Part shown: one piece after another, positions 2,495 to 23,454 of the stretch
Numbering within the stretch: position 1 is the first letter of the stretch
Layout: each line of letters begins with the position of its first letter
DNA from: a virus
Virus record (IMG/VR): IMGVR_UViG_3300027833_000224
Location: 1 to 23,475 of that record
DNA length: 23,475 nucleotides
Reading direction: 5' to 3' (one strand)
Notes under the pieces: model-generated
Seen by the model: only the letters and a program-made list of their open reading frames with translations
Databases searched by the model: none
What the model was told of the DNA's origin: nothing
Made by a program: the position numbers and the translations under genes

Positions 2495-3978
2495 TATCTC
2501 TGTCCGCTAGGGTTAATATCTAAGTCAGTAGCAATAGCTGTTGTCCAGTTTTCACCTACAGGTTCTACTCTAACTCTATGGTATCTACCACCTGATCTTA
2601 AATTGTTTCTATTTTCATAAGGTACAGATACAGGACCAAATTCGATTGTATCGTCTAATGCTTGTCTTGATGCAACTGAAATGTTAGCTTGTCCATTATC
2701 AATAATAGGTCTAGCTTGAGTAATAACTGACTGATAGCCAACCTCAATGTCTAATGTTTCTAGTCTAGGGTCTGCACAAACACCTGTAAATGAAACCATT
2801 TGTTTACCTTGAGTTCCAGCAAATACATACTTACCACCCATCCATACCCTATCGTCCAATGGTGCTGGTACATCTTTGTCAAGCTTAGGATATAATACAC
2901 CTAGCTTTTCTAAGTCAGTTCCCATTGTAGCTATATTGCCTACACTAGTTGCTAGCGTTTCTGTTCTTGACCACCTACCTGACTCTATGTGGTAGATTAA
3001 GTTTTGTCTTTTACCAAAGTTATCTGAATAATTCCATATTACTAATTTATAGATAGGGTGTACTGTTGTCGACATAGTAACCAATTCTTGTAAATTAGCA
3101 TTAGCTAGAAAAAACTCGTCTACTTTATTTGTACCTATAGCTGTTACAGTATTACCATCAGTCTGATAAAAACCATCATTAGATAAGAAGTAACTTATTC
3201 CGTTATCCTCAATACAGCTCTTACCTTCAAAACAACCAACAGTAGATATTTTATCAAACTGAAAGAATAAAGGTGAGCCTACATATGACATCCTATAGAC
3301 TGCATTTTCTAAAAAGATAATACCTATTTCACCACCTGTTATGTTGACAATTGCACCACCATCTGCAATATATTGAGAGTCAGCCTGTGACTGTGGACCT
3401 GATTCCCAATTCTCTTCGTTATTTAAATCACTCCATTTTACTAAGTTTGGAGCATCACCAGAGTCAATGTTACCAGCCACCACAAAGTCTCTCACAATAC
3501 TCATGCACTTTGCAGTTGGAGCTTCATTTAAATCTTTAAACTTAACAGACTCACCCATTGTCCATTCTTGTATTATATTATTATTCTTACAAGCCAACAC
3601 TCTCTTACCAAATTGCTCAAAGTGCCATGCTTCTGGAGATATACTATATGGTGATGACTCTCTACTAGCATCATCAATAACGAAGTCACCAGAGTAGGTA
3701 ATTGCTCTTCTTGATACAGGAGAGCCAGTGCTATATATGTTGTATAGCTTTTGGTCACTACCAGCAAATGTTTGTACTAATGCTGAGTCTTTACCAGAGT
3801 ATACAGCAGTTAAGTCTTGGTCTGCTAATGGGGATACCAAAACTGTTGTAGGAAAAGGACTATACCCTACATTGTTAGGGTACACATTACGTGCATCAGC
3901 TAAGTTGTTAGTTTCTGTTCCTGTTGTGCCGGGAAGATCTGGTGTCCACTCTCCCATCGAAATTCGTTTCATTGTCAT
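2494..3978 (-). CDS. Tail nozzle / tail tubular protein (T7 gp12- or P22 gp10-like)
   Basis: The 494-residue protein is predicted to form the distal nozzle of a short tail. Near the N-terminus it reads GEWTPDLPG (residues 9-17) and NLADARNVYPNNVGYSPFP. This matches the start of podoviral tail proteins that define where the ordered propeller begins. WHFEQFGKRVLACKNNN, VRDFVVAGN, LVKWSDLNNEENWE (about 179-192) and VYRMSYVGSP look like the repeated blades of the beta-propeller. It overlaps the glycine-rich adhesin gene by one base (TAATG). A second ATG two codons on is possible, but the first is better spaced from GGAG. The family is recognised by motif memory, and T7 gp12-like versus P22 gp10-like is not resolved. 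It supports assigning the phage as short-tailed. Confidence 0.8.
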   Translation of the reverse strand: MTMKRISMGEWTPDLPGTTGTETNNLADARNVYPNNVGYSPFPTTVLVSPLADQDLTAVYSGKDSALVQTFAGSDQKLYNIYSTGSPVSRRAITYSGDFVIDDASRESSPYSISPEAWHFEQFGKRVLACKNNNIIQEWTMGESVKFKDLNEAPTAKCMSIVRDFVVAGNIDSGDAPNLVKWSDLNNEENWESGPQSQADSQYIADGGAIVNITGGEIGIIFLENAVYRMSYVGSPLFFQFDKISTVGCFEGKSCIEDNGISYFLSNDGFYQTDGNTVTAIGTNKVDEFFLANANLQELVTMSTTVHPIYKLVIWNYSDNFGKRQNLIYHIESGRWSRTETLATSVGNIATMGTDLEKLGVLYPKLDKDVPAPLDDRVWMGGKYVFAGTQGKQMVSFTGVCADPRLETLDIEVGYQSVITQARPIIDNGQANISVASRQALDDTIEFGPVSVPYENRNNLRSGGRYHRVRVEPVGENWTTAIATDLDINPSGQR

Positions 3979-4814
3979 TAACCTACTCCACCTAAAATTG
4001 TTCCAGAAACCGCTATATCTATACCATCTGTATTAATAGCAAATTTGCCTAACCCACCAGGTCCACCACCATATGCTGTGCTACCTGAACCACCACCAGC
4101 AGTGCCATTTTGACCACAATTACCTCCGTTACCACTTATTTTTGGGTTAAAAGATGGGCTTTTTGTGCCTAACTGACCTATTGAATCAGAATAGCCAGTA
4201 ATACCAGCCCCATAACCACCATTAGCTCCAGGGATATAACTTGTAGAAATACCACCTCCATCAATTCTACCAGCTCCACCTCCTCCACCGCCACCACCAG
4301 CAATAGTGCCTGTGTTAACAATAGTTATATCAAAGCTATTAGAACTGCCTTTTACAATTCCATAACTACCATCACCACCTCTAGCTCCAGGAATCTGTGT
4401 ATTATAAATACCATTAGATTGTTTTCCAGCGCCTGATCCACCAAATCCACCACCACCTGATATGTAGCCATTGTTGTTAATGAGCACAGTTGAACCAGAC
4501 GGGAAGTTACCGACTGTGAAAGCGTTGGTTCTTGCTGGTATGTTGTAAGTACGTGGCGCATCATAAGATGAAATAACCGCTTCCGCTGGTATGTTAAATA
4601 TAACAGACAATGCTTCCGTTGGACTACCTAAATACTCATATAAGTTAAAGTTGTTTTGACTATCTATTAAGTCAACTGTCTTAATGAGTTCTTTCCAAGC
4701 ACCACCTGAGTTGACATATACATTCTTACATACACGCCAAGTGCCCAATTGGTTTATCCAAATAGACTTAGGAAGCTTCCAAGTGCCTTCATCATTTACA
4801 TAAATACCAGCCAT
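3978..4814 (-). CDS. Glycine-rich tail adhesin / fibre tip protein
   Basis: The 278-residue protein has two parts. The first 40 residues contain three copies of a short beta motif (IYVNDEGTW, IWINQLGTW, VYVNSGGAW), common at the start of phage tail fibre modules. From residue 100 onward there are long glycine runs (YISGGGGFGGSG, an eight-glycine run at 173-180, and GGGSGSTAYGGGPGGLG near 240-256). These alternate with strands such as GNFPSGSTVLINNNG and ITIVNTGTIAGG. This resembles adhesins that fold as polyglycine-II helix bundles, such as T4-like gp38 and lambda-like tip proteins with NNGYIxGGGG, and would bind the host surface. The start directly abuts the upstream stop (TAAATG). The receptor-binding role is inferred. 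Confidence 0.75.
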   Translation of the reverse strand: MAGIYVNDEGTWKLPKSIWINQLGTWRVCKNVYVNSGGAWKELIKTVDLIDSQNNFNLYEYLGSPTEALSVIFNIPAEAVISSYDAPRTYNIPARTNAFTVGNFPSGSTVLINNNGYISGGGGFGGSGAGKQSNGIYNTQIPGARGGDGSYGIVKGSSNSFDITIVNTGTIAGGGGGGGGAGRIDGGGISTSYIPGANGGYGAGITGYSDSIGQLGTKSPSFNPKISGNGGNCGQNGTAGGGSGSTAYGGGPGGLGKFAINTDGIDIAVSGTILGGVG

Positions 4815-5306
4815 TTAAACTTTGTACCATATGTCTCCATCAACTCCGCCAGAAGGTGATAAAGAAGACACTGTTTTCTTACCAATAGCATTAGTACCAA
4901 TCTTAGCCATTTCAATCTCATCAAATTGACCAGTCTTTGTTGTGCCATTAATAATACCACCTGTTATAGCAACTGCATTAGCATCCTGGGTTGATATAGT
5001 TCCTAATGTTCCTACCTCTCTGTCAACATAAGCAGTTGTTGCTAACTTTCTTGAGTTACTACCAGCTGATTGAGTTACGGCTATTGTGTTTCCGTTAAAT
5101 GTAGCATCGCCATTAACAGTTAATACACCATCAATAGTAGTAGCATCGCCACTAGAGCCATTTTGGAACTCTTTAACTTGACTCATCACTTCTCTAATTG
5201 CATTATTGATATTTGAAGGAGGACAATTTTCAGCGATATTAATTCCACCAACATCGGTATTGTTAGCTGGATTAACGTCCCATTGACTGATTTTTTCTTT
5301 TGACAT
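4815..5306 (-). CDS. Tail fibre-type structural protein (ISQWD family)
   Basis: The 163-residue protein begins with KISQWDVNPANNTDVGGINIAE and CPPSNINNAIREVM (residues 5-42), a highly characteristic opening of marine phage tail fibre proteins. It is followed by a beta-rich repeat region (TIDGVLTVNGDATFNGNTI), the strand/helix pair SRKLATTAYVDREV and GGIINGTTKTG, and a short C-terminal strand DGDIWYKV. It has no enzyme motif. It probably forms part of a trimeric fibre or its connector, since it sits between small tail proteins and the glycine-rich adhesin. The start has AAGGT upstream. Confidence 0.8.
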   Translation of the reverse strand: MSKEKISQWDVNPANNTDVGGINIAENCPPSNINNAIREVMSQVKEFQNGSSGDATTIDGVLTVNGDATFNGNTIAVTQSAGSNSRKLATTAYVDREVGTLGTISTQDANAVAITGGIINGTTKTGQFDEIEMAKIGTNAIGKKTVSSLSPSGGVDGDIWYKV

Positions 5307-5315
5307 TGTTATACC

Positions 5316-5504
5316 TTATTTGTTTTGAAGTTTGTAAGCTACAAGATTACATTCATTATATGACCAAGATGTCATTGTATTGGGAGTGTGTGGATGAGCT
5401 TCTTGGCATTCTTGCATTGACTTATAGCCTTTCGCTATCTTCCAGTCATTCTCAAATCCGTATCCCATACCACCTAATAAAGCTATTATTGCTACTATGT
5501 GCAT
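5316..5504 (-). CDS. Small hypothetical protein with hydrophobic N-terminus
   Basis: This 62-residue protein starts with a short hydrophobic stretch (HIVAIIALLGGMGYGF, residues 2-17). That stretch could be a weak signal or membrane anchor, although it lacks the usual N-terminal lysines. The rest is polar and has two cysteines (QECQ and NECN), which may form a disulphide if exported. A clear ribosome site (AGAGGAAA) precedes the ATG. It sits inside the tail cluster between two tail-protein genes with short gaps. Function is unknown; a minor tail or lysis-associated role cannot be separated. Confidence 0.65.
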   Translation of the reverse strand: MHIVAIIALLGGMGYGFENDWKIAKGYKSMQECQEAHPHTPNTMTSWSYNECNLVAYKLQNK

Positions 5505-5519
5505 AATTATTTCCTCTAG

Positions 5520-5780
5520 TTATTTAATTTGATTCCAATCTTGTGATTGGGTCATGTCCCACTCAGGTGTGTCAGGGTTAATCCTTGTCCACCCACTTCC
5601 AGCAATAGTGCCGTCTGTTGTTAATATTGCTTCACCTACTATGTTACCACCATCAAGCCATTTAGCGTTAGCATTAGCTTGAAGTATAGCTTCACCAACA
5701 AAACTTGCTTTTTCTCTAATGATTGCTCCACTACCTGTAGATGCAAAAGGTGCTGATGCAAATGTTGTAAATCCTAGCAT
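5520..5780 (-). CDS. Small putative tail structural protein
   Basis: The 86-residue protein begins MLGFTTFASAPFASTG, a short opening I associate with small tail proteins of marine phages. It then shows two related beta motifs (FVGEAILQANANAKW and IVGEAILTTDGTIAGSGW), so it looks like two repeats of a small beta unit, followed by a Trp-rich end (EWDMTQSQDWNQIK). AAGGA lies seven bases before the ATG. Its place after the large LamG/SPRY tail protein supports a virion role. No specific function is assigned. Confidence 0.7.
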   Translation of the reverse strand: MLGFTTFASAPFASTGSGAIIREKASFVGEAILQANANAKWLDGGNIVGEAILTTDGTIAGSGWTRINPDTPEWDMTQSQDWNQIK

Positions 5781-5789
5781 ATTATTCCT

Positions 5790-8141
5790 TTACCTTGCGT
5801 TAGCGTTTTTAAATGGTTGTTCGGCAAATGCCATGTATATATGTGTATTGCCATTTACTGTAGGATTTGTTGTTCTTAATTTAAATCCATTAGAAACCAA
5901 ATCTACTCCCTCTCCAATACCAGAAGCTTCTGCACTTCCCATGTTTGGTTGAAGGTATTTATCTGTAGCATTATAAGGATTTCTTGTGTCATCAAACATC
6001 ATCCAATCTGTTGCTTGAGTTACATTTTTTATCAGCACAAAAGCTGGTTTAAACCCTGTGTATACAAATGTACCATTAACATTACTATTGCCTTGATAAG
6101 TGCCAAACTTACTGTATCCTTCTACATCTGCAAAGCAATAGGCTACTGATGTATAAAGACCATAATTTGTAGAACTTGCTGAACCAACCCCTGTACCCAT
6201 AGTTATAACAGAACTTGTTGGAGCAGTGTTATTCCAAGGGTCTGTTGATGTACCAATACTGCTAGTTGTATTTAAATTTAAATAATTATTCTGCGGTGAA
6301 GCAGACATATCTTTATGGTATACAACCCAGTTTGCATCAAGACCTCGGTACTTCATAATAATCATAGATGGAGCAACACCTAGTCCATGACCAACTGTAG
6401 CACCTACCAAGTTGTTAGTTGTAAATGTTACCACACTAAACCCAGATTCTGGGTTAGTACTTACTTGTGACTCTATTGTTCCATCATTGTTAGTTACTGT
6501 TGTACCAGCTTTCCAGTTCCATCCTACATATGTAGAGTTGATAGCATTTACATCAGCTAAATCACCAACACTAAATCCATCTGGGTCAAATGACTTCAGT
6601 CCATTAGGATAGGTATATTCTTGGTCATTAGTGTTAGTAAAAATAGCCTTTGTTGCACCTCGGACACTATCAATCACATTATGTGAATGTGTCCCTGACC
6701 TCATTTTAATCCATGTAAGGTCAGGTTGGAATCCAACGCCAGTAATAGCACGAGAAGTTTCTGCATCACCACTATAGGTTATAGTATTAAAGCTCTCACT
6801 AGGAACTACTGTTGCACCGGGTAAGTTCTTTGTGCTTAATGCTTTAAAGCCTGTAGGTGGTGCGTAGGTAAATGGTGTTTGCCCAAAGTTACTTACATTT
6901 TGTCTTGACGCATTAGTAGTTTGACCTATTGTAAAGAATAAATTAGAAGTATCTGTTATAGTAAAAGCTACCCCAAGAGATACTCCGTTCCTATAAAAAG
7001 TTAGGTCTCCAGTGTCCATATCTATAGCTGTACCTATAGTCTGTCCTACAGAACACGCTGAAGCATAAGCTGTTTGTGTTACATTATTACTTTTATTTCC
7101 GTTTATACAAAGGAAACTCCAACCATCTGTAGTGTTAGAAGGCAAAACATTATTTTCTACTGTTCCTTTTAGGACTCCTACAAATTGGTCTACTTGAGTA
7201 ATAGTTGCTTCAAAATACCATTTACCGCTCAAAGGTAACTGAATAGTTGTTCGTTCATTATAAGCAGAAGTAGAAGAGATAACATCAAGATTACCATTAC
7301 TTAAAGTACTAGATGAACTGCTATTCAAAGGATTCAACGTAGCATAGTTATCTGTAGGTGTATCTGTTACTTGTACAACATTAGTATTAATCCAATCATT
7401 ACCATTACCTGATGTATCTTTACCTAGGTCAGCACTGTCTAATGCTTCTAAATAGAATCCATTAGTACCATATGTACCTGTGTATTTCTTAGGTAACCAT
7501 TCACCAAAAGCTCCTGTTTCACCAAAGGCTGATGGTTCTAGTGCTTGTCCATCTATGAAGTTATACTCTGATAGGTAGCCATCAAGCCAACTTGTTCCTG
7601 TATTAAATTTCCCTGTGTAATGCCAATATGCTGTATTAAGTGTTCCACTTGCATTTAAAGACGGATAGGTTTCCTTAGTAAACTCAGTAACTCTCTCACC
7701 ATTTATATATATAGCCAATCTGTCAGAAGCAGTTGCATTAGTGGTATTAGCTACTACTGTAATGTGATACCAAGCTGAAGGGTCTCTAAATACTTGGGCA
7801 GTTGTAAGTCTCCAATAAGTACCTCCAGCATAGTCAAAGTCAAAATCTATTGCATCGTTAGTATCAAACGTTATAAACCCACCAATTCCAAAACCACCAC
7901 TTGATGCAGTCTGTAAAAGTGCTTGAGATGTTCCTAATTTACCTCTTTTGACCCATCCGCTCCATGTCCAAGTTTGAAGGTTACCAGCACTAAAGAGTCT
8001 TTGTATCTGAGCATTAGTACCATTAAATAACATACTATCAACGACTGTATAGCCATCTTTTAGATAAGCATCTAATTCACCACGAGTGATTTTATATTGA
8101 ACACCACCTCTACTAACTACGAGTAAGTCTGTATCTGCCAT
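5790..8141 (-). CDS. Large tail protein with LamG-like, SPRY-like and DUF7483-like domains
   Basis: I choose the ATG at 8141-8139, which follows AGGAGAG at good spacing, over the TTG one codon upstream that touches the preceding stop. This gives 783 residues. The first 30 residues (ADTDLLVVSRGGVQYKITRGEL) are a tail-attachment motif. Residues about 35-210 form a concanavalin/LamG-like sandwich (FNGTNAQIQRLF, WTWSGWVKRG, WYHITVVAN). Residues about 295-430 are SPRY-like (GKWYFEATI, GTAIDMDTGDLTFYRNG). Residues about 455-780 carry two DUF7483-like repeats (VGFQPDLTWIKMRS and VAPSMIIMKYRG, with FKPAFVLIKNV as a further strand). Such proteins are common in marine phages and likely bind glycans on the host. 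Receptor specificity cannot be read from the sequence. Confidence 0.82.
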   Translation of the reverse strand: MADTDLLVVSRGGVQYKITRGELDAYLKDGYTVVDSMLFNGTNAQIQRLFSAGNLQTWTWSGWVKRGKLGTSQALLQTASSGGFGIGGFITFDTNDAIDFDFDYAGGTYWRLTTAQVFRDPSAWYHITVVANTTNATASDRLAIYINGERVTEFTKETYPSLNASGTLNTAYWHYTGKFNTGTSWLDGYLSEYNFIDGQALEPSAFGETGAFGEWLPKKYTGTYGTNGFYLEALDSADLGKDTSGNGNDWINTNVVQVTDTPTDNYATLNPLNSSSSSTLSNGNLDVISSTSAYNERTTIQLPLSGKWYFEATITQVDQFVGVLKGTVENNVLPSNTTDGWSFLCINGNKSNNVTQTAYASACSVGQTIGTAIDMDTGDLTFYRNGVSLGVAFTITDTSNLFFTIGQTTNASRQNVSNFGQTPFTYAPPTGFKALSTKNLPGATVVPSESFNTITYSGDAETSRAITGVGFQPDLTWIKMRSGTHSHNVIDSVRGATKAIFTNTNDQEYTYPNGLKSFDPDGFSVGDLADVNAINSTYVGWNWKAGTTVTNNDGTIESQVSTNPESGFSVVTFTTNNLVGATVGHGLGVAPSMIIMKYRGLDANWVVYHKDMSASPQNNYLNLNTTSSIGTSTDPWNNTAPTSSVITMGTGVGSASSTNYGLYTSVAYCFADVEGYSKFGTYQGNSNVNGTFVYTGFKPAFVLIKNVTQATDWMMFDDTRNPYNATDKYLQPNMGSAEASGIGEGVDLVSNGFKLRTTNPTVNGNTHIYMAFAEQPFKNANAR

Positions 8142-8144
8142 CAA

Positions 8145-10322
8145 TTACTCTCCTGTGTTAATACCAACAACTCTAAATATAGCCATATATGTTGATTGAC
8201 CCGCAGCTGTTGTATAGTTAATTTTATCTACACTTTCTGGGTACATATAAGCAGCAGCACCTCCTGATATACATACACGAGCACACTCACTTGTTGGAAT
8301 TAAATCACTTCTTTTTAAAGTAGGAGAGTCTGTTCTTACAGAATCAAACCTTAAATAATCAAAATTATCATAAGATTCACTTAAAGAAAAGTCTAAAGCT
8401 CCAGTTGGATTATCATATAATACTGTTTCTTCCCAACCTGAACCACCACCTACTGCTACAGGCATACGAGCTTCTTGCCATGTAAGTATTGAGCCTGTTC
8501 CAGCAGTAACTTTTATTGCATAAGTGCTTCCTACAGGAACTAATGTAGATAATTGTGCATTCACTACACCAGCACCTGAACCACCAGCACCACCTACACT
8601 TAAACCATCTAATTCTAAAACCATTTGTGAAGCACCAGATGGTAAAACATATGTTTGAATATAAAGAGGAACATCTTGAGTGTTTGTATAAACAGTATTT
8701 ACTGCTCTATCAGCAGTTACAGTTTCCCACACTAAAGGCTCTGGAGTGTAACTACCACTTCCACCAATACTTAACCCATCAGCAGTTACTTTATAATTAG
8801 TTCCTGTTCTTTCTGTTACAAATAAATCTGTACCTTTTAATTCTGTTGGTAATGCTGGTAGTGCATCTATATCTAAAGTACCACCACCTGTTACCTCTGT
8901 CCATGTAGCATCTTTTCTTCCATACTGCTTACCGTCTACAGGAGCTTCCCCTACTTTTGTTGTAATTGCTGTTGTATTAGCTGAGATGTTTACATCTTGA
9001 GCATCGTCAATAGCATCTGATTCAGCTTTAGTGTATGAATCACCTGTACCTGGTTTAGGAAATGCTTGAAATGCTATTTTAACACCTTCTATTACTGTTC
9101 CTTCACCTAGCTTTGGAATAACATTCATTACAACATAGCTACCTGATACATCTTCAATGCTAACAAGCTCGTATCTTCCGTAATTAGGACTTTCTACTTG
9201 ATTTAATACAATAGAATCACCAGCTTGAACTGCTGTAAATTGTCTTACATTGCCTGATTCATCAGTCTTTGAAACAAATATTTGTGTTGCTTCTGCATAA
9301 GAGTATGTAAACAAAGCTACATTCTGTAAGTACATATTGCCATCCTCAGGGTCTCTGTTAGGGGCTGATGGATAGTCAGCGGAGTAAGCTGAAGTAAAGA
9401 AGATGCTATCTTGTAGTTCTCCAATATCTTCTGAGTTCTGAGCTACTTGTCCTGATAGTGTGCCAATAGCTGTTGTGTTACTAGATATGTTACCTGTGTT
9501 AGTTTCAATGTCTGTTGTGTTAGCTGTTATTTCAGCATCTTGTTCTAGTTGTTGTGAGTCTATTTCAGCTTTAGTGTAAGTAGTAGTTTTATCTGCTTTC
9601 TCAAATAACTTACTATCAATTTCAGTGTTGTTGTAAGTTTCAGCTTTGGTATAGCTATCACCAACATTGGCTTTGCTATCTAATAGTGTGTTTGTTTGTG
9701 TTTTAGTATAAGTTGTTGCTTTATCAGCTTTTGCATCTAATAGTGTGTTTGTTTCTGTTTTAGTATACACATCACTAGCATCAGCTACAGTGTCCCATTC
9801 ACCATCTCTTCTACCATACATCAGTCCATCAACAGGTGCATCAGGTATGCCAGAGCTACCAGCAATACTTACCCATGTTGCATTATTACGAGCATATGTC
9901 TCACCATCTGTTGGTGCTTCAGGTGCTAGGTTATTTGCATCAGCATTAATGTTAGTAATACCATTGCCTTTGCCTACAAAGTTATTAGCAGTTACATTAG
10001 ATGATGGAAAATATATATTGTCATCAGCATTTAAGAATACAGCTTTCTCAGAAGGATAGGTACAGAATACACTTGCTTTACCATCTAACGAAAGTAAGCT
10101 TCCAGTGTTAGAAGATAATAGATTTCTTACAATCTCTCCACCTGTCTTAACACCATATCCTACTTCCCAATTTATATCCTCTGTAATACAGTAATAAACA
10201 GTGCTACCATCAGTGATTGCTTCCCAACCTTGATAGCCTTCTTTAGTTGCTCCTACCTGAATATCAGCCTTACCTATTGTAGTACAGTTTGTGTATACTC
10301 TGTCTTTTAATTGAATTGCCAT
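8145..10322 (-). CDS. Tail fibre protein with internal repeats
   Basis: The protein has 725 residues. The N-terminal ~100 residues (QLKDRVYTNCTTIGKADIQVG through FCTYPSEKAVFLNADDN) resemble the virion-attachment domain of many marine phage fibres. Residues 186-255 hold four to five copies of a YTKxExxxLLDxKAD-type repeat, with one more near 430; these predict a triple-stranded helical shaft. A second motif, APxDGxxYxRxxxxWxxV, occurs at about 136-153, 162-179 and 460-477. The region 260-305 is a coiled coil of NTT/DIE repeats. The C-terminal 200 residues are beta-rich with glycine patches (LSVGGAGGSGAG) and probably form the tip. AGGA precedes the ATG. Confidence 0.82.
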   Translation of the reverse strand: MAIQLKDRVYTNCTTIGKADIQVGATKEGYQGWEAITDGSTVYYCITEDINWEVGYGVKTGGEIVRNLLSSNTGSLLSLDGKASVFCTYPSEKAVFLNADDNIYFPSSNVTANNFVGKGNGITNINADANNLAPEAPTDGETYARNNATWVSIAGSSGIPDAPVDGLMYGRRDGEWDTVADASDVYTKTETNTLLDAKADKATTYTKTQTNTLLDSKANVGDSYTKAETYNNTEIDSKLFEKADKTTTYTKAEIDSQQLEQDAEITANTTDIETNTGNISSNTTAIGTLSGQVAQNSEDIGELQDSIFFTSAYSADYPSAPNRDPEDGNMYLQNVALFTYSYAEATQIFVSKTDESGNVRQFTAVQAGDSIVLNQVESPNYGRYELVSIEDVSGSYVVMNVIPKLGEGTVIEGVKIAFQAFPKPGTGDSYTKAESDAIDDAQDVNISANTTAITTKVGEAPVDGKQYGRKDATWTEVTGGGTLDIDALPALPTELKGTDLFVTERTGTNYKVTADGLSIGGSGSYTPEPLVWETVTADRAVNTVYTNTQDVPLYIQTYVLPSGASQMVLELDGLSVGGAGGSGAGVVNAQLSTLVPVGSTYAIKVTAGTGSILTWQEARMPVAVGGGSGWEETVLYDNPTGALDFSLSESYDNFDYLRFDSVRTDSPTLKRSDLIPTSECARVCISGGAAAYMYPESVDKINYTTAAGQSTYMAIFRVVGINTGE
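9678..9767 (-). repeat. 57-bp-period direct repeat within the tail fibre gene
   Basis: Two 33-base copies (9678-9710 and 9735-9767) differ at one base and are spaced 57 bases apart, i.e. 19 codons. They encode the TKTxTNTLLD part of the fibre shaft repeat. The near identity at DNA level means a recent duplication or active homogenisation; the protein repeats further along are more diverged. Confidence 0.85.
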
Positions 10323-11710: not shown

Positions 11711-12607
11711 TTACACAATACCTGATACTTTAGCGTGAGCTTTTTCGTTTTTAACAACGAGTGTGTACTCAACGTTCATTAGGTGCTTCTCTGAATCACC
11801 AGTCTTAGCTAGTTTAGTTTTCTTGAAAGGTCTCAAGTAAGCTACTGAAGCCATTGAAGGGTCAACAAATAATGCACAAGCATCGTCTAAGAATCTATCA
11901 GGAACTACATTTAGTGTACCAAAGTCTGACAAATATACGTCAGCAGTACCAATAATTGTAGTTGGTGAAGATTTAGGAGCTTGATAACGCTGTTCAGCAA
12001 TACCAGTAAAACTAGATACTTGTACCTTGTTTTTAGGTGATACTAATAACATTGATGGCTCGCCACCTTGGTCATAAGCTTCTAACATTGCGCCTTTTAA
12101 GTCGTCCTCAGCAAATGTTGTAGTGCCATCAGTACCTGTTGCTGTTACATCGTTAGTTGTAACCCAAGCTTGCATACCTTGTAGTGTACGAGCTGTTGTA
12201 GAGTTACCAGCAGATTGTGCTTGGTCAGAAAGTAAAATAGTTTCCATATCGCGTTTTAGCTCTGATGAAGCCTTAGCTAGTTGGTAAGCTGTTTCTGTAG
12301 TTCTACCAGCTTTATCTACTACGTCATCTGTTGTTGACACTTGCACTACTTTGTCAGAGATTTGAGTTCTGTTACCTACTTTCTCTGTTGTTGCTAGTGC
12401 TGGTGCTACTGCATCAGCCCCTTCTAATTGTGCATTAGTTGGGTCTACGTCAGCCAGATTGTCTGTTTGCCATTCGTGGTATGTCGCTTTAGCTTTAGTT
12501 CTGCCAATAGTTGACATGAATGGAGTTGTTGTTGGTGAAATATCGTAAATCGCGTCTTGTAAATCTTCGCGTTTACCCTCTGTATCGTACGTTAGCATAG
12601 TTGCCAT
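11711..12607 (-). CDS. Major capsid protein (DUF5309 / SU10-like HK97 fold)
   Basis: The 298-residue protein begins MATMLTYDTEGKREDLQDAI and carries SPTTTPFMSTIG (24-35), ATYHEWQTDNLADVD (41-55), EKVGNRTQISDKVVQVSTT (75-93) and ELKRDMETILLS (116-127). These motifs are characteristic of the DUF5309 family of HK97-fold major capsid proteins of SU10-like and marine phages. The C-terminal part has VYLSDFGTLNVVPDRFL and CALFVDPSMASVAYLRPF, strands of the A/P domain. It follows the scaffold gene with a 15-base gap containing AAAGGAAAC and is followed by a strong hairpin, as expected for the most highly made virion protein. Confidence 0.92.
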   Translation of the reverse strand: MATMLTYDTEGKREDLQDAIYDISPTTTPFMSTIGRTKAKATYHEWQTDNLADVDPTNAQLEGADAVAPALATTEKVGNRTQISDKVVQVSTTDDVVDKAGRTTETAYQLAKASSELKRDMETILLSDQAQSAGNSTTARTLQGMQAWVTTNDVTATGTDGTTTFAEDDLKGAMLEAYDQGGEPSMLLVSPKNKVQVSSFTGIAEQRYQAPKSSPTTIIGTADVYLSDFGTLNVVPDRFLDDACALFVDPSMASVAYLRPFKKTKLAKTGDSEKHLMNVEYTLVVKNEKAHAKVSGIV

Positions 12608-12622
12608 TGTTTATGTTTCCTT

Positions 12623-13624
12623 TTAAATAAAGTTTTTGAATACCGAAGTGGCATCATCTATACTTCCTGATGACTTCAGTCGTTTTTTCTGTTTTTGATA
12701 TACGTCAGTCTTTGCTATCTTATTACCTTTCTTAGCCATCTTAGGAGCTTTTGTAAGCTTCTTAGAAACGCCTGGATTAGATTTTTGTAGCTTATCCCAT
12801 TGTGCTGCTTTTTGCATTACAATGACATGTCTGTGATCGTATACCTGTGCAAGTTCTTCATCACTGAAGCCTACACTTTTCCCAAATTCACGAATGTCTT
12901 TCTTGACTTGCTCGCTTTTCTTTGGATCAGAAAATTCCTTTACTTTTTCAGATAACATAAGTGCTTCATGCTGAACTACTTTAGCTTGATGCTGTGCAAC
13001 TTGTTGTTGTTGAGCGGTAGCTAATCTATCCTGTTCTTGCTGAAGCAACTGTAATTTTTTGTTGTTCTCTGTCTTATCTGCAACCTTAATTGCATATTGT
13101 ATTGGGTCGTTTTCTTTTAACTCTTCCATGTTTACGCCATCATCACCTTCTTTCTGTAATAATGCTTGAACTTGGCCTAGTCTTTGAGCATATTGCTCTC
13201 TCATTTGCATAGCTTCTGATACTGCGTGAGCTTCAGCTTCTACTTTCTTTCTATCTTCTGAAAGTTTCTGGCTTTTTTGAGTATAGTCTTCGCCCTTTTG
13301 GTAACCACTAACTAATTCATCGAGAGTTACATCTTTCTCAGTTCCGTTAGCCTTTACTCTAAAGGTCTTTCTTTCTTCTACCTCAACCTCATCTTCAGAT
13401 TCATCTTCTTCTTCGGTATCGTCTGGTTCGTCTTCCGACTCCTCTTCTACCTCTTCTTCAGTTTCATCTTCTGTAGTATCTTCTTGCTCGTCTGTTTCTT
13501 CCTCTTCTACTTCAGCCTTTGGGTTATCGTTTGATTCCTCATGCTCTAGTATTGTAGTAAAAACATCCTGTGCATCTGGAGTTTCAACTACTTCAGATGA
13601 AGTGTCGTTGATTTGCTCGGTCAT
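12623..13624 (-). CDS. Scaffolding protein
   Basis: The 333-residue protein has an extremely acidic N-terminal half: residues about 37-87 are almost all Asp, Glu and Thr/Ser. Next come FRVKANGTEKDVTLDELVSGYQKGEDY, a domain seen at the start of phage scaffold proteins, and a long Gln/Lys/Glu coiled coil (about 115-235, with QQEQDRLATAQQQQ). The C-terminal 60 residues are strongly basic (SKKLTKAPKMAKKGNKIAK). That is the usual capsid-binding helix of a scaffold. It lies immediately upstream of the major capsid gene. No protease motif is seen. Confidence 0.88.
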   Translation of the reverse strand: MTEQINDTSSEVVETPDAQDVFTTILEHEESNDNPKAEVEEEETDEQEDTTEDETEEEVEEESEDEPDDTEEEDESEDEVEVEERKTFRVKANGTEKDVTLDELVSGYQKGEDYTQKSQKLSEDRKKVEAEAHAVSEAMQMREQYAQRLGQVQALLQKEGDDGVNMEELKENDPIQYAIKVADKTENNKKLQLLQQEQDRLATAQQQQVAQHQAKVVQHEALMLSEKVKEFSDPKKSEQVKKDIREFGKSVGFSDEELAQVYDHRHVIVMQKAAQWDKLQKSNPGVSKKLTKAPKMAKKGNKIAKTDVYQKQKKRLKSSGSIDDATSVFKNFI

Positions 13625-15034: not shown

Positions 15035-16126
15035 CTATCTGTTGTTAAATGCTTCTAATAATCCTTTCATTATCACAGGATCTACATCATACCCATATGG
15101 ATTATCTTCTGATTGTCTGTTGAATGGAAAGTATTTTCTTCTTTCGTCTTCATTAAGATTCATTCTTGTTTCTGTTAGTCTTGCTTCTGCTTCTACTGGT
15201 TGATAAAGATAAGATAGATAGTCTCTATGTCCATCATCTAAATCGCTAGCAGTTCTGGTTAGGTTTCCATCAGCATCATTCCACAATAAACCTTCTTGTG
15301 ATTTGTCAAACACATCTCTATTGTTTCTCAAGTATTCTTTCCAGGGAGCGTTACCTGTTCCACCACCCCAATCCTCTAATGATTGTATGCTATGTTGGTT
15401 CTCATGTAATATTGTGCTAAGTATATCTTTGTCTGATCTAAACTGTCCGTTAGCGTGTCTACCACCAAATAATGTTTGGTTAGGTATTGCCATATTATTG
15501 TGCATTTTTAAAGCATTAGCATCAGGGCTTAAATTGTTATCTCTTAACCATTTATTCATAACATCTAAATCAAAATGCTTATCTTCTGTTATCTTTTCAT
15601 CACTACCTATTTGTTCAAGTATTACATTGACAGCATCTGTATTCATACCAGCATACCCTGTTGCACCTTCACCATCACCACCCCAACCACCTGGTTGATG
15701 TGAACCAAAAGGACTTGCTCTTTCACCACTATCGTTTCTTTTTGATTTAGCCAAATCAAACTTACTAAAAGCAATACCAGGATAAGCTTTATTTACCTCA
15801 TCATGATTTAAATACTCCCATAAACTGCCAGACTCATTAGTATCATCTCTATTTACTTTATCTTCTAGCTTTGCCCATGATTGTAGTTTAGCTTTTGAGT
15901 CATCAATCTCTTGCATCATTTGACCACCAGTTCTTCTGCCATTCATTGTTTTAGCCCATATATCTTCAGGACTATAACCTTCTTGTTCCATTCTTAATGC
16001 TTCTTCATACATACCCTTATTCCATTGTGCAGAGTTAGGGCCAATGAACGTAGCTACATCTGTCTTCTGTCCAGTAAATGCCTGTGGTCTATTCTCCCAT
16101 GAGTTTATGATCTCGTCTAGTTTCAT
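15035..16126 (-). CDS. Polyvalent-type zinc metallopeptidase-like protein (HExxH)
   Basis: The 363-residue protein carries ILSTILHENQHSIQSLEDW (from residue 235) with the zinc motif HENQH at 241-245. A glycine patch (GGGTGNAP) and a downstream QPVEAEARLTETRM (309-322) follow, whose Glu could be the third metal ligand. Upstream, residues 25-85 contain TFIGPNSAQWNKGM, MEQEGYSPEDIWAKT and MQEIDDSKAKL, and WEYLNHDEVNKAYPGIAF follows. This arrangement is familiar from large polyvalent proteins of phages and conjugative elements, there followed by HExQH and EVEAR. It overlaps the ADP-ribosyltransferase-like gene by ATGA. It is probably carried in the virion. The target is unknown. Confidence 0.8.
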   Translation of the reverse strand: MKLDEIINSWENRPQAFTGQKTDVATFIGPNSAQWNKGMYEEALRMEQEGYSPEDIWAKTMNGRRTGGQMMQEIDDSKAKLQSWAKLEDKVNRDDTNESGSLWEYLNHDEVNKAYPGIAFSKFDLAKSKRNDSGERASPFGSHQPGGWGGDGEGATGYAGMNTDAVNVILEQIGSDEKITEDKHFDLDVMNKWLRDNNLSPDANALKMHNNMAIPNQTLFGGRHANGQFRSDKDILSTILHENQHSIQSLEDWGGGTGNAPWKEYLRNNRDVFDKSQEGLLWNDADGNLTRTASDLDDGHRDYLSYLYQPVEAEARLTETRMNLNEDERRKYFPFNRQSEDNPYGYDVDPVIMKGLLEAFNNR

Positions 16127-17154
16127 CTTTGTCTTTGTAGTTGTTGGAAGAAGTCAGGCTTTTCTGCTGCACCCACTTCATTAGACTGTAATAACATTCC
16201 TAACCCTGTCCCTCTCATTCCTTTAATACCTAGTTCAGCAACAACAGATGGATCTGCCATAATATCACCGGCTAAGTTAAATGTACCAGCACCTGTATCA
16301 CCATATGCTTGTGCTTGTTGTTGATTAACACCACCGATTGTATTCATTAGAGAATCCCATGCACTTACTTTAGGTTTATGTTCTAGGTCTAACTCATCAG
16401 CCATTAGATTAGCAGATAGTATTGCTCCAGCTCCTACACCAGCCATCTTTGGATTAAAGTGAGCTAATGGACTTCTTATGATTGATTGGTTATTAACTGC
16501 TATATGCTTTGCTGGTTTAATATCAGCACCATGTTTCATATGGTCATCTAAAGAATTAAAAATTGTATAGTCATCTTTAGCTCCTTTACTTAGCTTATCT
16601 CTCATAAAATCTTGAATAAAAGTTTCTTCTGGGGTTGGTAATGTTCCCCATTCAGTTGTTGACCTATAAGCTTCACCATCCATGTCGTAAGATTGTCCAC
16701 TGCCTTGCTTTATTTTTAATGGATATACTTGACTACCACTTGGGTTATCTATATTAAAATTAAGCTCTTTTAATTCATCTGTTGGTATATGTTTGTCTCC
16801 GCTAGTGTATGGCTTTCCTTTTCCATACTTTACTCTAGCACTGTCTTTAATGTTTTTTGCGTTCATTATAGGAGCATATTCTGCATAAGAACTTGCTACC
16901 TCTGGACTATCAGTAAGCCAAGTAAAGTTTTCACCAACACCACCAGACCCTGTAAAGCTTGGGTCAAACTCATCAAAAGAACTGCCACTTCCATGATAGT
17001 AAGTCTCATCACTAAAACCCATAGCATTAGCTCTGTCTAATGCAGTGTTATTCTCTGGTAAACCTAAACGCTTAACACCCTCTATTCTTGCAGCATCATC
17101 AGCTTTAGTCCATGCTTTAAACATGTCATCTACTTTAGTTCCTAGTTTAAGCAT
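16123..17154 (-). CDS. ADP-ribosyltransferase-like protein (ART-PolyVal type)
   Basis: This 343-residue protein shows the expected motifs in order: TYYHGSGSSFDEFDPS (51-66, His54 at the NAD-binding position), FTWLTDSPEVASSYAEY (77-93, the second strand region) and VNNQSIIRSPLAHFNP (220-235). The last matches the DPNQIKSAxxNxFDP end of ART-PolyVal domains. An ADP-ribosyltransferase would move ADP-ribose from NAD onto a host protein. A Gly/Ala/Met-rich segment (MAGVGAGAILSANLMA, 237-252) could be membrane-interactive. The third motif has Gln rather than Glu, so activity needs testing. It overlaps the portal gene by eight bases and the next gene by four. Confidence 0.78.
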   Translation of the reverse strand: MLKLGTKVDDMFKAWTKADDAARIEGVKRLGLPENNTALDRANAMGFSDETYYHGSGSSFDEFDPSFTGSGGVGENFTWLTDSPEVASSYAEYAPIMNAKNIKDSARVKYGKGKPYTSGDKHIPTDELKELNFNIDNPSGSQVYPLKIKQGSGQSYDMDGEAYRSTTEWGTLPTPEETFIQDFMRDKLSKGAKDDYTIFNSLDDHMKHGADIKPAKHIAVNNQSIIRSPLAHFNPKMAGVGAGAILSANLMADELDLEHKPKVSAWDSLMNTIGGVNQQQAQAYGDTGAGTFNLAGDIMADPSVVAELGIKGMRGTGLGMLLQSNEVGAAEKPDFFQQLQRQR

Positions 17155-19420: not shown

Positions 19421-19639
19421 TTACTTATGTATAAAGTTTATTATTCCTAGTAAATATATTGTGAGTGCAACAAAGTTCATGCTAATCATTGCTTTGTCTT
19501 TCCACATAAATGAGACATATATCCATCCTATTGTGGCTGGTACTGCTAGAAATATGTTGAGTGGGTATATATTAGATGCAGTGAGTATCATACTGACGAT
19601 GATAATGAGACTGCTTATCCATTTGATTGTATTTGTCAT
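19421..19639 (-). CDS. Three-helix membrane protein, DUF6552-like
   Basis: The 72-residue protein has three hydrophobic stretches: about residues 8-26 (ISSLIIIVSMILTASNIYP), 28-46 (NIFLAVPATIGWIYVSFMW) and 50-70 (AMISMNFVALTIYLLGIINF). A short charged loop (KDKA) lies between the second and third. The NIYPLN and GWxYVSFMWxDKA motifs recall DUF6552, a family seen in marine bacteria and their phages. AGGAG overlaps the terminase stop, so it is coupled to the terminase. It has no known function; a holin-like role is possible but nothing in the sequence proves it. Confidence 0.75.
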   Translation of the reverse strand: MTNTIKWISSLIIIVSMILTASNIYPLNIFLAVPATIGWIYVSFMWKDKAMISMNFVALTIYLLGIINFIHK

Positions 19640-19647
19640 GCTTTCTC

Positions 19648-21021
19648 CTATAAATATTGATTCTTGTAGCTCTCTCCATCGTATGTTGATTCGTATGGCT
19701 TATTCCAATTAGATCTTGTTGTTGTGCTGTTAGTGTCTATACCTATAGCTAAATATCTAAAAGCATCTGCACAGTGAGATGACCAATCGTGTAATGGTTT
19801 CTCTTGGTATACGTTAAGCTTCTCGTTAAAGACTCTTCTATAGTTTCTAAGACACTCTAGGCCAAACTTAGTTGTTTCCTTATTGAACCAAGCGTTAGGT
19901 AACATCTTACGAACTGCCATGATGCCATCCTCTACTGATAGCTTTGCAGCAACCTCAATGTTAAGACCGGCTTCTGTTAGGAATTCATACCTAGACTTAC
20001 CTGTTTGTAGCTCTCTAACGTTTACATCGTGAGGTAGGATATGAGTATAATCTCTATATCCTTTCTCATCTAACCATCCTATATAATGGTCTAATGGCAT
20101 ACCATGATTTTCATAGTAGTCCATTAATCTAATTTCACCACCTAGAGTCTCGCAGACCCATATTGAAGTGCTATCAGATACTCCCAAGTCCCAAGCTGTC
20201 CACTTTTGAGTGGCACTTTCAGGTTGGAGTTCTCTTATGTGGTTTCTTCCATCTAAGTCCTTTATCATCTCACCATAATAACTACCTACGATAGGTGAAT
20301 CAAAAGATACTTCAAATTCTTGTTGGTACTTGTTCTCTCCCATAGCCTTACGAGCATCATCTAATTCTTCTTGTGCTATAAGGCCTGTATCACTTGCTTT
20401 AAACTCTCTTAGTGTCCATGAATCGTTAGCATCATCATCTGCAAAGTCTCTTAACTCTTTGAAGTGGTTAGCACCCTTTGGTGTACCAATAAATAATGCC
20501 CACCCTAATCTGTCCGAAAGAGCCGGTCGTATAACTTCTGTAAATAATGAAGGATGAACGTCACCGATCTCGTCAATGACCACCCCATCCAAATATATGC
20601 CCCTAATAGAATCAGGAGAGTCAGCCCCATAAAGGCTAATACGCCTTCCCATAAAATCAACACGAAGTTCACTTACGTTGCTAGTGCCACCAAGAGGACG
20701 AGTATAGTCAACCAAATAATTCCATGCGATACGCTTTGCTTGGCCATAAGTAGGCGCAATATATGCGAACTGAGGATCTTTCTTCTCACATTTAAGTGCT
20801 GAATGTATGAGCTGATTGATTGCTGCAACTGTTTTGCCCATCCTACGATGTGCGACTGCCACTGTCCACCTGTTGTCTTTAACGGCTCTGTGAATTTCTT
20901 TTTGAGGTTCTCTAGGCTCATAGCCTGTGCTAATTTCGTTCTCACTCGTCAATACCTGTTTTAACGACGATTGTGATTGGTTGGTCGCTGTCTCCTGTGA
21001 TTTCTTGACTTGCTTTTCCAT
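19648..21021 (-). CDS. terL: Terminase large subunit
   Basis: The 457-residue protein is the packaging motor: an N-terminal ATPase and a C-terminal RNase H-like nuclease. Walker A is the variant HRRMGKT (58-64) and Walker B is VVIDE (147-151, catalytic Glu151); an adenine-binding YEPREPQ motif precedes at 34-40. The nuclease acidic residues are Asp278 (WDLG), Asp332 (HDV) and Asp419 (ADAFRY). It would cleave concatemeric DNA and pump it through the portal. The first ATG overlaps the small terminase gene by 80 bases and has GGAG upstream. No later in-frame ATG precedes the Walker motif, so the overlap seems real unless a TTG is used. Confidence 0.93.
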   Translation of the reverse strand: MEKQVKKSQETATNQSQSSLKQVLTSENEISTGYEPREPQKEIHRAVKDNRWTVAVAHRRMGKTVAAINQLIHSALKCEKKDPQFAYIAPTYGQAKRIAWNYLVDYTRPLGGTSNVSELRVDFMGRRISLYGADSPDSIRGIYLDGVVIDEIGDVHPSLFTEVIRPALSDRLGWALFIGTPKGANHFKELRDFADDDANDSWTLREFKASDTGLIAQEELDDARKAMGENKYQQEFEVSFDSPIVGSYYGEMIKDLDGRNHIRELQPESATQKWTAWDLGVSDSTSIWVCETLGGEIRLMDYYENHGMPLDHYIGWLDEKGYRDYTHILPHDVNVRELQTGKSRYEFLTEAGLNIEVAAKLSVEDGIMAVRKMLPNAWFNKETTKFGLECLRNYRRVFNEKLNVYQEKPLHDWSSHCADAFRYLAIGIDTNSTTTRSNWNKPYESTYDGESYKNQYL

Positions 21022-21199
21022 CTAATCTGTCTCCGAGTTCTTTGATTGCAGCTATATCTCCAGATGCAGCTTTCTCATATAGAGCATTAGCTACTGAATG
21101 TAGTTTGGCATAGTCTTCTTGGACTGCAAGCTTCTTAACGATCTTGCCCCAGATTCTATTTTCTTTTGATGAGTTTTTGTTGCCTTTGGGTGCTGCCAT
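20942..21199 (-). CDS. terS: Terminase small subunit
   Basis: The 85-residue protein starts MAAPKGNKNSSKENRIWGK and contains LYEKAASGDIAAIKELGDRLDGK (split as LYEKAASGDIAAIKEL / GDRLDGK, residues 40-62). This GD-AIKELGDRLDGK pattern is typical of small terminases of podo- and siphoviruses. The basic N-terminus would bind the packaging start site. It lies directly before and overlaps the large terminase, has AGGA at good spacing, and follows a structured leader (21219-21304) where the packaging signal could lie. It is short for a TerS, so part of its DNA-binding surface may be reduced. Confidence 0.85.
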   Translation of the reverse strand: MAAPKGNKNSSKENRIWGKIVKKLAVQEDYAKLHSVANALYEKAASGDIAAIKELGDRLDGKASQEITGDSDQPITIVVKTGIDE

Positions 21200-21259: not shown

Positions 21260-21282
21260 GATATTTTGAATTTTAACTAGCC

Positions 21283-21304
21283 CCTCCTGGTAATCTCCAG
21301 GAGG
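21283..21304 (-). terminator. Hairpin between pqqA-like gene and terS
   Basis: A perfect 8-bp stem, CCTCCTGG/CCAGGAGG, with a 6-base loop lies 40 bases past the pqqA-like stop. No U tract follows (GGGCTAGTTAAAA), so it is more likely an mRNA-stabilising or attenuating hairpin than a strong terminator. In bacteria a hairpin between pqqA and pqqB lets pqqA transcripts accumulate in excess, and this could be analogous. Confidence 0.6.
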
Positions 21305-21344
21305 CAAGCATCCGGATTTGTAGCATCCTTTGACTGTCTTACAA

Positions 21345-21416
21345 TTACTTGTTACAAACGTACATTGTTACTTCAAAACCGAAACGCATTTCAGTCGCAA
21401 CTGGTGTTGTCCACAT
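21345..21416 (-). CDS. pqqA: PqqA-like PQQ precursor peptide
   Basis: This 23-codon gene is read on the minus strand from the ATG at 21416. It opens MWTTP, continues RFGFEVTMY (residues 11-19) and ends in Asn-Lys. Bacterial PqqA has the pattern MW-x-x-P, then R-x-G-x-E-V-T-x-Y and a short basic end. In the 23-residue Klebsiella form the Glu at 15 and Tyr at 19 are the residues joined to make pyrroloquinoline quinone. Here Glu15 and Tyr19 are at exactly those positions. AGGA lies eight bases upstream. The gene sits alone between the ribonucleotide reductase terminator and the terminase, without pqqB-E, so it would act as extra substrate for the host PqqE/PqqD. The Cys at 21 is a difference from the forms I remember. 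Confidence 0.9.
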   Translation of the reverse strand: MWTTPVATEMRFGFEVTMYVCNK

Positions 21417-21527
21417 AATGTTTATCCTTTTTAACGATTAAAAAATAAACAAGATCAGATGAGAGCTATGCAAGTCATCCTTGATGTTTCCCCTTCTACT
21501 ACTAATATCGAATTTAAAAACAATACC
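21417..21527 (-). promoter_or_regulatory. Leader region of the pqqA-like gene, promoter presumed
   Basis: Because an intrinsic terminator ends the upstream unit at 21528, a promoter for pqqA should lie in this 111-base AT-rich stretch. No convincing -35/-10 pair is visible; TTGCAT plus a TTTATT 18 bases on is the best and is weak. The 9-mer ATCGTTAAA (minus strand, 21438-21430) sits just before the ribosome site and also occurs before the scaffold ribosome site (13655-13647). A phage or sigma-specific promoter is possible. Confidence 0.35.
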
Positions 21528-21579: not shown

Positions 21580-23454
21580 TTAGGTGATTTCACAGCTACT
21601 GCCTACACAAGCCAATGTTTGCGCTCCTTCTGTGTTATCATCCTCCTCAATCAACTCTTCAAACTCAATTAACTGAGGTGTTTCTTTTAATGCCTGTCTA
21701 AATGTTTCCTTATCTACCTCTTGATATGGTGCTTGTTGGTAGCTGTGGTCTGAGTGTGGTAAGAAACTAATACCTGATATTTCATCAAAGTTCTTATACA
21801 CCCAAGCTCCTACCTCTAACCATTCATGATCTCTAACGTTAATCGTTACAGAAGGTTTATGTTCACACCAATGGCGTTGATAAGTTAGCCATGTCTCTAG
21901 CTCTTCTAGTGCAGTTCTATCATCCCTAGTAATACATCCTCTAGGAGATTTGATAGGAAAGCTAAACACTGCTGTTTGCTTATACTTATCCATTAAGCAA
22001 TCCTCAACAGGAACTCCTTTATCCTTTAAGAAGGTGTACAAAGAGTCTTTCTTGTCTGTACGCACTGTTCTTATATAATAAGGACTATGCCTAGAATGAA
22101 TGCCTGAGGATGCATTAGTTAATTGAGAAACGGTACCACTTGGCTTAATGCAGCTGATAGCCGCAGAAACAGGGACATCTAGGAGCTTTGCATATTTCTC
22201 ATTAGTTTTTCTAGCTTCATCTCTCATTTGCTCTAAAAATACAGGGTCAGGGTTAGCCATCATCTTACTGTCCATAATCCCTGTTAATGACACGCCTAAC
22301 AATCTTTCTTCAGTAGTATTCTTATGCCAATCAGCAGATAGAAACTGAAACTTATCTAATGTAGATTGGAAAGTACCTAGTATGGTTGCTAACCTTACCT
22401 TTTCTAGTAAAGTTTCCTTAGTATCTTCCTCTCTAATAACAACTTCAGTTAGGTTACAGAATTGCTTATCCCTCAAAATTATTTCCGAACATGGATTTGT
22501 CCCGTAGTTTAAAGAGTCATCACGTCTACCCCATTTAGCTGCTTGTTTCTGTGATGCAACCCTGTTAAAGATACCACGTTCACCAGACTTAGACTTAATG
22601 AGAGAAATCCACTCATCAATAAACGTCTCAATGTCTGGCGTTTCAGTATAAGCCACTGAATTATTTGCAATTCTTCTCCAGGGTGTTTGGTCTTCATCAA
22701 ACCAATTACCAACTTTAGCTTCTCTCATGCGTTTGTCACTAAGATTAGACAATGAGATAAGAGCTGAACGTCTAACTCCACCTACTACTACAATCTCACC
22801 AATCATACAAGTGATATCATGCACTTCTAATGAGTTTAGCTTACGCCCTCTAGCGTTAAGAAAGGTATTAATTACAAAAGTAAATAGTCTTTCTAATGGG
22901 TCTGGGCCTGATGCTCTGCCACCAAACGTTTTAAGTCTAGCACCGGCTGGTCTAATACGAGTGTAGTCAATGGTTGGTATGTCACCCTCCCATAAACTAG
23001 ATAGAAGTTTTTTAAACGCTTTCGCCCACCCAAGTTTGCTGTCGCCAACAACAATAGTATCATCACAAGTATTAACACTCTCTGGCACTTTTGGTAGCTT
23101 TTCAATTTCTTGTCTTTCACAACTAAAACCTACTCCTGTACCATTCATTAAGATATATAAGCACTCTGAAAATGCTCTCTTGTTATTCATTGCAAGGTAA
23201 CTACAATTATATGCTGCAATGTTATCTCTTTCACATGCTTCACCAGCAGACATAAGTAGTCTCATAGATGGCATGACCTCTAGCTTTAATACAGCATCAT
23301 GTATTCTATCTATATCTTTACCTAGCTTTGGTTGATGTTTACGGATAAAGTCAGTTAGTCTAGTAACTGTCTCATCCCAGTTCTCTCTTCTTTTTAGTTC
23401 TGGTATGTATCTAGCGTAACGTGATACATGAATGAATCTTTGGTAATTGTCCAT
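21580..23454 (-). CDS. nrdJ: Adenosylcobalamin-dependent (class II) ribonucleotide reductase, monomeric type
   Basis: The 624-residue enzyme reduces ribonucleoside triphosphates to deoxyribonucleotides for phage DNA synthesis using a B12-derived radical. Key residues are in place: Cys84 (YNCSY) and Cys333 (QFCNL) as the reducing pair, Cys322 in NPCSEI as the thiyl radical site with Asn320 and Glu324, and KPSGTVSQL (437-445) as the phosphate-binding loop. The C-terminal CVGSSC pair (616/621) re-reduces the active site. GVRRSALISLS (226-236) is also typical. It resembles the Lactobacillus RTPR but is about 115 residues shorter. No ATP cone is seen at the N-terminus. AAAGGAGA gives a strong ribosome site. 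Confidence 0.93.
   Translation of the reverse strand: MDNYQRFIHVSRYARYIPELKRRENWDETVTRLTDFIRKHQPKLGKDIDRIHDAVLKLEVMPSMRLLMSAGEACERDNIAAYNCSYLAMNNKRAFSECLYILMNGTGVGFSCERQEIEKLPKVPESVNTCDDTIVVGDSKLGWAKAFKKLLSSLWEGDIPTIDYTRIRPAGARLKTFGGRASGPDPLERLFTFVINTFLNARGRKLNSLEVHDITCMIGEIVVVGGVRRSALISLSNLSDKRMREAKVGNWFDEDQTPWRRIANNSVAYTETPDIETFIDEWISLIKSKSGERGIFNRVASQKQAAKWGRRDDSLNYGTNPCSEIILRDKQFCNLTEVVIREEDTKETLLEKVRLATILGTFQSTLDKFQFLSADWHKNTTEERLLGVSLTGIMDSKMMANPDPVFLEQMRDEARKTNEKYAKLLDVPVSAAISCIKPSGTVSQLTNASSGIHSRHSPYYIRTVRTDKKDSLYTFLKDKGVPVEDCLMDKYKQTAVFSFPIKSPRGCITRDDRTALEELETWLTYQRHWCEHKPSVTINVRDHEWLEVGAWVYKNFDEISGISFLPHSDHSYQQAPYQEVDKETFRQALKETPQLIEFEELIEEDDNTEGAQTLACVGSSCEIT

Follow-up and report, generated by a model that had tools for sequence, protein, structure and literature searches.

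A 23-codon gene on the minus strand of a viral DNA fragment encodes a predicted PqqA, the peptide precursor of PQQ, and genes of the same kind recur in viral contigs and in cultured methylophages. The fragment, hereafter the window, is the whole stretch of 23,475 nucleotides analysed, a linear 23.5-kb IMG/VR record (IMGVR_UViG_3300027833_000224). We consider it probable (about 0.8) that the phage gene is a working copy which supplies precursor to the PQQ enzymes of the host and thereby sustains or boosts its methanol dehydrogenases, a reading based on sequence comparison.

Identity of the peptide and its setting in the window

The frame translates exactly to MWTTPVATEMRFGFEVTMYVCNK* over 23 codons, and an AGGA-type site lies upstream of its ATG (Table 1), as an earlier note on this DNA had described. 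Against Pfam PF08042 PqqA the peptide scored 35.9 bits (cut-off 21.1, E 7e-9) and against NCBIfam TIGR02107 39.6 bits (cut-off 20, E 3e-10). It shows the E-x-x-x-Y spacing of the crosslinked pair, Glu15 and Tyr19. As two curated models are matched above cut-off, the assignment to the PqqA family made in the earlier note is confirmed at the level of sequence. A codon-level PqqA pattern matched once in the window and in 0/100 dinucleotide shuffles and 0/400 simulated windows. PHROGs contains no family for this peptide, and its silence hence says nothing. The search of solved structures with the peptide matched nothing, the scan for consensus promoters and terminators around pqqA gave no signal above chance, and the Rfam search of the intergenic region returned sub-threshold matches only.

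pqqA sits between the phage ribonucleotide reductase (RNR) and terminase genes, all on the same strand, and its start codon follows the RNR gene after a gap of 163 bases. The RNR is 72% identical to the RNR of the OM43 phages MEP401/402, and the terminase large subunit is 60% identical to that of methylophage Venkman; from these identities, a Methylophilaceae host is likely for the window phage. The 85-residue protein downstream of pqqA had no match in Pfam or PHROG, and its position suggests a small terminase subunit. A phage structural module, with an SU10-type portal and a major capsid protein, makes up the rest of the window. The window is phage DNA and not host contamination, given its RNR, terminase, SU10-type portal and capsid and the conservation of the site in relatives. 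Neither PqqE nor a PQQ alcohol dehydrogenase was found within the 23,475-base record, which agrees with the previous claim that PqqE is missing here.

Table 1 Features of the window and of a second pqqA-carrying viral contig
Record	Feature	Position	Strand	Evidence
Window	pqqA, 23-codon PQQ precursor peptide gene, MWTTPVATEMRFGFEVTMYVCNK	21345..21416 (stop codon included)	-	Translation, Pfam and NCBIfam
Window	Ribosome-binding region of pqqA, AAAAAGGATAAACATT then ATG, AAGGA core	21417..21432	-	Sequence; AGGA-type site
Window	Class II (B12-dependent) ribonucleotide reductase, upstream neighbour	21580..23454	-	PHROG 367, 586 bits
Window	85-residue protein, downstream neighbour	20942..21199	-	ORF list
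Window	Terminase large subunit	19648..21021	-	PHROG 2, 131 bits
Window	Hairpin element just 3' of pqqA	21268-21340	-	
Window	Small DUF6552 membrane-like protein behind terminase	19421-19639	-	
Window	Two polyvalent-domain proteins	15035-17154	-	
IMGVR_UViG_3300025120_009955	Methylotrophy features	3978-5864, 5935-8784, 12056-12790		

Conservation and selection

Among 20 relatives with an RNR of at least 75% identity and at least 250 bases of sequence downstream, 15 carry pqqA at the homologous site, where it starts 147-390 bases after the RNR gene. The other five have no pqqA at that site, and a DUF6552-like gene follows the RNR in four of them. pqqA is not fixed at the RNR site; these five relatives are fragments and may carry the gene elsewhere. 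One relative's pqqA starts ATG-AAA-CAG.

Glu15 and Tyr19 are kept in 162/162 viral homologues found by tblastn, a search that did not demand these residues; most of the loci had been collected via the motif and about a quarter via terminase or RNR. The weakest real match reached 29.7 bits and noise at most 20.7 bits. pN/pS was 0.27 across the codons that the search pattern leaves free (137 distinct sequences, synonymous sites near saturation), and 0.13 for close pairs. Among the positions left free by the pattern, Phe14 does not vary and Asn22 hardly does. Judging from these substitution ratios, the phage gene is under purifying selection. The earlier note had made its proposal depend on retention of the frame and of both crosslinked residues in related phages and had suggested a dN/dS comparison across them. 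All 162 homologues retain both, and the pN/pS values of 0.13-0.27 point the same way.

Spread among viral contigs and cultured methylophages

The pattern scan of IMG/VR gave at least 120 stretches, each with a PqqA-type frame and one copy per locus; among the 120 matches listed, 104 encode Methylophilaceae-type peptides and 16 peptides of another type. pqqA is far commoner than the earlier note had supposed. A ribosome-site core (AGGA, GGAG or GAGG) precedes 119/125 phage copies. The loci among the matches listed form three large groups, of 71, 24 and 14, that no two shared genes connect; the others stand in several pairs or singly. The largest group includes the window, P19250A, MEP301, Venkman and the Manatee Spring phage. 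The group of 24 has portal proteins, members of the group of 14 have a T4-type DNA polymerase, and Melnitz pairs with one contig outside the three large groups. At least three phage backgrounds with no link between them carry pqqA.

Its position differs between lineages. It adjoins RNR and terminase in the window, lies at the opposite end of the genome map from the RNR in MEP402, has recombination genes adjacent in MEP301 and Venkman, and has a tRNA adjacent in Melnitz. This variation suggests that phages acquired pqqA repeatedly or passed it among themselves; the 69-base gene holds too little signal for a tree to date or count the acquisitions. Two of the 16 viral peptides of other type (WETP...) resemble the Methylomonas peptide, so that phages of methanotrophs may also carry pqqA.

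When 50,697 phage records were searched by tblastn with the peptide, 12 matched. Nine belong to cultured Methylophilaceae/Methylophilales phages, one is a metagenomic phage genome (Manatee Spring), and two are Acinetobacter records. The latter two, INPHARED entries for 'Acinetobacter phage MD-2021a' (CAKLQF020000010.1 and CAKLQH020000055.1), were rejected as phage carriers. The inspected region of CAKLQF020000010.1, with ppk and pqqBCDE, is clearly host chromosome, and CAKLQH020000055.1 matches likewise.

The nine records of cultured carriers are P19250A, Venkman, MEP301, MEP401, MEP402 and four of the T4-like Melnitz. PqqA is annotated in none of them, and mostly there is no annotation at all: the matching region is free of any annotated feature in P19250A, MEP301, Venkman, MEP401 and MEP402, and in Melnitz (inspected in Melnitz-1) the match overlaps a hypothetical protein annotated on the other strand. 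The gene may have been overlooked because gene callers generally skip a 23-codon gene. The term 'pqq' is absent from the papers describing Venkman, MEP301 and MEP401/402, and the Melnitz paper mentions it solely as a medium additive. pqqA was present in every cultured methylophage surfacing in this analysis; the NCBI taxonomy names further methylophages, namely HIM624-A, phiMB624-A, MEP431-434, a second Venkman strain, MG-MtP1 and RSA-MfP1, the last described as a filamentous phage.

Hosts and source of the gene

Phage copies most often encode WTTPAATEMRFGFEVTMYVMNK, and this peptide likewise ranks first in the genomes retrieved, which are mostly Methylophilaceae. A peptide also found in host genomes is encoded by 49/125 phage copies, a comparison that shows compatibility and is not a census since MRFGFEVTMY had served to select the host genomes. 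Three phage copies are DNA-identical to a Methylotenera copy over the 66 bases compared. Taken at the sequence level, the phage gene appears to be derived from hosts of the family Methylophilaceae and to have been retained by selection.

All 15 candidate host genomes, several of them incomplete assemblies, carry pqqA in 1-7 copies each; pqqE and a PQQ alcohol dehydrogenase each score over cut-off in 13/15. The earlier note's expectation that the host makes PQQ fits most of these candidates. Mostly they have one pqqBCDE set and several pqqA copies. Methylophilaceae bacterium 11 has one pqqA heading pqqBCDE and four solitary copies. The complete 1.3-Mb genome of OM43 LSUCC0665 has no pqqA adjoining pqqBCDE and three copies elsewhere, two of them in tandem; near the tandem lies a small gene whose start resembles a SoxYZ-like carrier. 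For Methylophilaceae, 3-12 pqqA copies and normally one of each other pqq gene have been described (PMC4109929), and pqqA copies are differentially expressed in a PQQ-producing methylotroph (PMC9851590).

PQQ enzymes in carrier viruses

PqqE was found in 0/20 carrier records, so the occurrence of pqqA without pqqE, first noticed in the window, is general among carriers. A PQQ (methanol) dehydrogenase was found in 1/50. This record, IMGVR_UViG_3300025120_009955 (72 kb), carries pqqA and a methanol dehydrogenase of XoxF type. The latter shares 87.5% identity with its counterpart in OM43 LSUCC0665 and has the DYD motif, which is typical of lanthanide XoxF. The contig further encodes a quinoprotein-dehydrogenase-associated SoxYZ-like carrier, the alpha subunit of a formate dehydrogenase, a ribonucleotide reductase, GroEL and a DNA ligase, and has weak matches to tail-fibre and minor-head proteins. 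It is similar to those Baikal methylophages that carry a methanol dehydrogenase. Further genes of this contig include IscU and a DnaK-like gene; the methylotrophy set is large for a single viral contig.

Proposed role and alternatives

We propose that pqqA, taken up from the methylotrophic host family Methylophilaceae, is expressed upon infection, so that PqqA peptide would be produced from the phage genome. Host PqqD/PqqE would crosslink Glu15 to Tyr19 and, with the other PQQ enzymes, convert the peptide to PQQ, as its near-identity to host peptides suggests. The PQQ supply of the host methanol dehydrogenases (XoxF/MxaF) would then be maintained or raised, with a presumed rise in PQQ and a presumed benefit to the phage. 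Because candidate hosts mostly have one pqqBCDE set and several pqqA, extra precursor dosage for host PqqD/PqqE is probably the best mechanism. One PqqA is consumed per PQQ and hosts multiply only pqqA, hence a copy replicated with the phage would be a cheap gain in flux; owing to this stoichiometric consumption, a phage-borne copy also fits the way in which hosts already regulate supply. The same host copies make the gain from one extra copy less obvious. The five relatives that lack pqqA behind the RNR and the low count of carriers with a PQQ dehydrogenase (1/50) also weigh against the proposal.

The phage copy might instead only replace host pqqA expression lost on shutdown and hold PQQ at the level of uninfected cells, which we regard as possible, though the less probable course. 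Phages commonly shut off host expression, and PqqA is a consumed substrate that needs continual synthesis. The long latent periods of MEP401/402, about 17-20 h (PMC10580990), also fit such maintenance. Sequence cannot tell maintenance and boost of the PQQ supply apart. That the peptide lowers PQQ, by occupying PqqD/PqqE or the processing protease as a decoy and so redirecting host metabolism, is very unlikely. Carriers encode the substrate alone and no enzyme, and excess peptide could in principle titrate PqqD; however, in a decoy the reacting residues should have been lost or changed, whereas Glu15 and Tyr19 are the same throughout and many phage peptides match the host substrate exactly. One carrier phage encodes a PQQ enzyme itself and would need more PQQ, not less.

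Equally improbable is a role outside PQQ, with the peptide or a modified product as signal, antimicrobial or superinfection factor. Radical-SAM-modified peptides can act in all three ways. A PqqA-annotated RiPP family has been found near co-expressed defence systems (PMC11118758). In the phages, however, the residues used for PQQ are unchanged, no extra maturation enzyme was found, and the peptide sequence tracks the PQQ-making host family. Least credible of all is a functionless passenger, a host fragment brought in by recombination or misassembly. The several orphan copies of the hosts would be easy to capture, but this explanation is already contradicted by the sequences: pqqA stands at the same site in 15/20 close relatives, it appears under purifying selection with frame and ribosome site intact nearly throughout, and it occurs in unlinked phage lineages and in sequenced isolates.

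Supply of precursor to the host enzymes is the reading we retain, and the comparisons suggest that topping up PQQ may be a general tactic of methylotroph viruses. A wider joint reading, to which we give even odds, holds that precursor supply is near-universal and repeatedly acquired in Methylophilaceae phages, that PqqA dosage and not the PQQ enzymes limits methanol oxidation in infected cells, and that the trait may reach phages of other PQQ-making hosts.

Relation to known systems

Cyanophage psbA is a host gene carried by phages that keeps a bottleneck component supplied. Phage pqqA differs from it in encoding a 23-residue peptide which is consumed as a substrate, not an enzyme or photosystem protein. 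The phage peptide shares with bacterial (Methylophilaceae) PqqA the length of 23 residues and Trp2, Pro5, Arg11, Gly13, Glu15, Val16, Thr17 and Tyr19. The phage gene stands alone without pqqBCDE, whereas in hosts one copy can head pqqBCDE, as in Methylophilaceae bacterium 11, and others are solitary. The orphan pqqA of Methylophilaceae chromosomes (PMC4109929) are also solitary and encode the same peptide, whereas the phage copies replicate with the phage.

The earlier note had allowed that related methylophages with this gene might already be described, and this caveat was justified. A 2020 study described PqqA in VP_266, a population of Lake Baikal methylophages, and suggested that it supports methanol dehydrogenase (PMC7678222). 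VP_266 was described as one case, a T4-like contig which also has a methanol dehydrogenase, whereas the window and most of its relatives are other phage types with no dehydrogenase. Viral pqqA, pqqD and pqqE were listed in 2026 as auxiliary genes of reservoir sediment viruses (PMC13188868); there, they were read as phosphate solubilisation, with no link to a methylotroph phage or an isolate. Searches of an open-access library yielded no statement of pqqA as general in methylophages or as present in the isolates. The new part appears to be the breadth and recurrence of pqqA in methylophages and its systematic omission from annotation.

In fresh and coastal water, Methylophilaceae (OM43, Methylopumilus) are abundant methanol oxidisers. 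Should pqqA be a regular gene of their phages, infection would be tied directly via the cofactor to the first step of methanol oxidation. Among auxiliary metabolic genes, phage pqqA would be of the smallest kind and one that standard annotation does not see; surveys of such genes that set a minimum ORF length miss precursor peptides. The multiple host copies suggest the question whether PqqA supply limits PQQ in these cells.

Other features of the window

Just 3' of pqqA lies an element of the form AGTCAAAGGATGCTG-n-AAATCCGGATGCTTGCCTCCTGGAGATTACCAGGAGGGGCTAGTT with a strong hairpin. It is near-identical in three relatives though their coding sequences have diverged more, it had no Rfam match, and its exact core occurs in only three other viral contigs. 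A second recurrent small hairpin, TTCAGAGGACGACTTCAAGTCCTCA, is found at the corresponding place behind pqqA in four relatives. The hairpins behind pqqA look like interchangeable terminator-like modules. The small DUF6552 membrane-like protein lies behind the terminase in the window, and in some relatives a DUF6552-like gene directly follows the RNR and takes the place of pqqA. The two polyvalent-domain proteins carry LPD23 and a sub-cut-off match to the ADP-ribosyltransferase ART-PolyVal, and are probably ejected together with the DNA.
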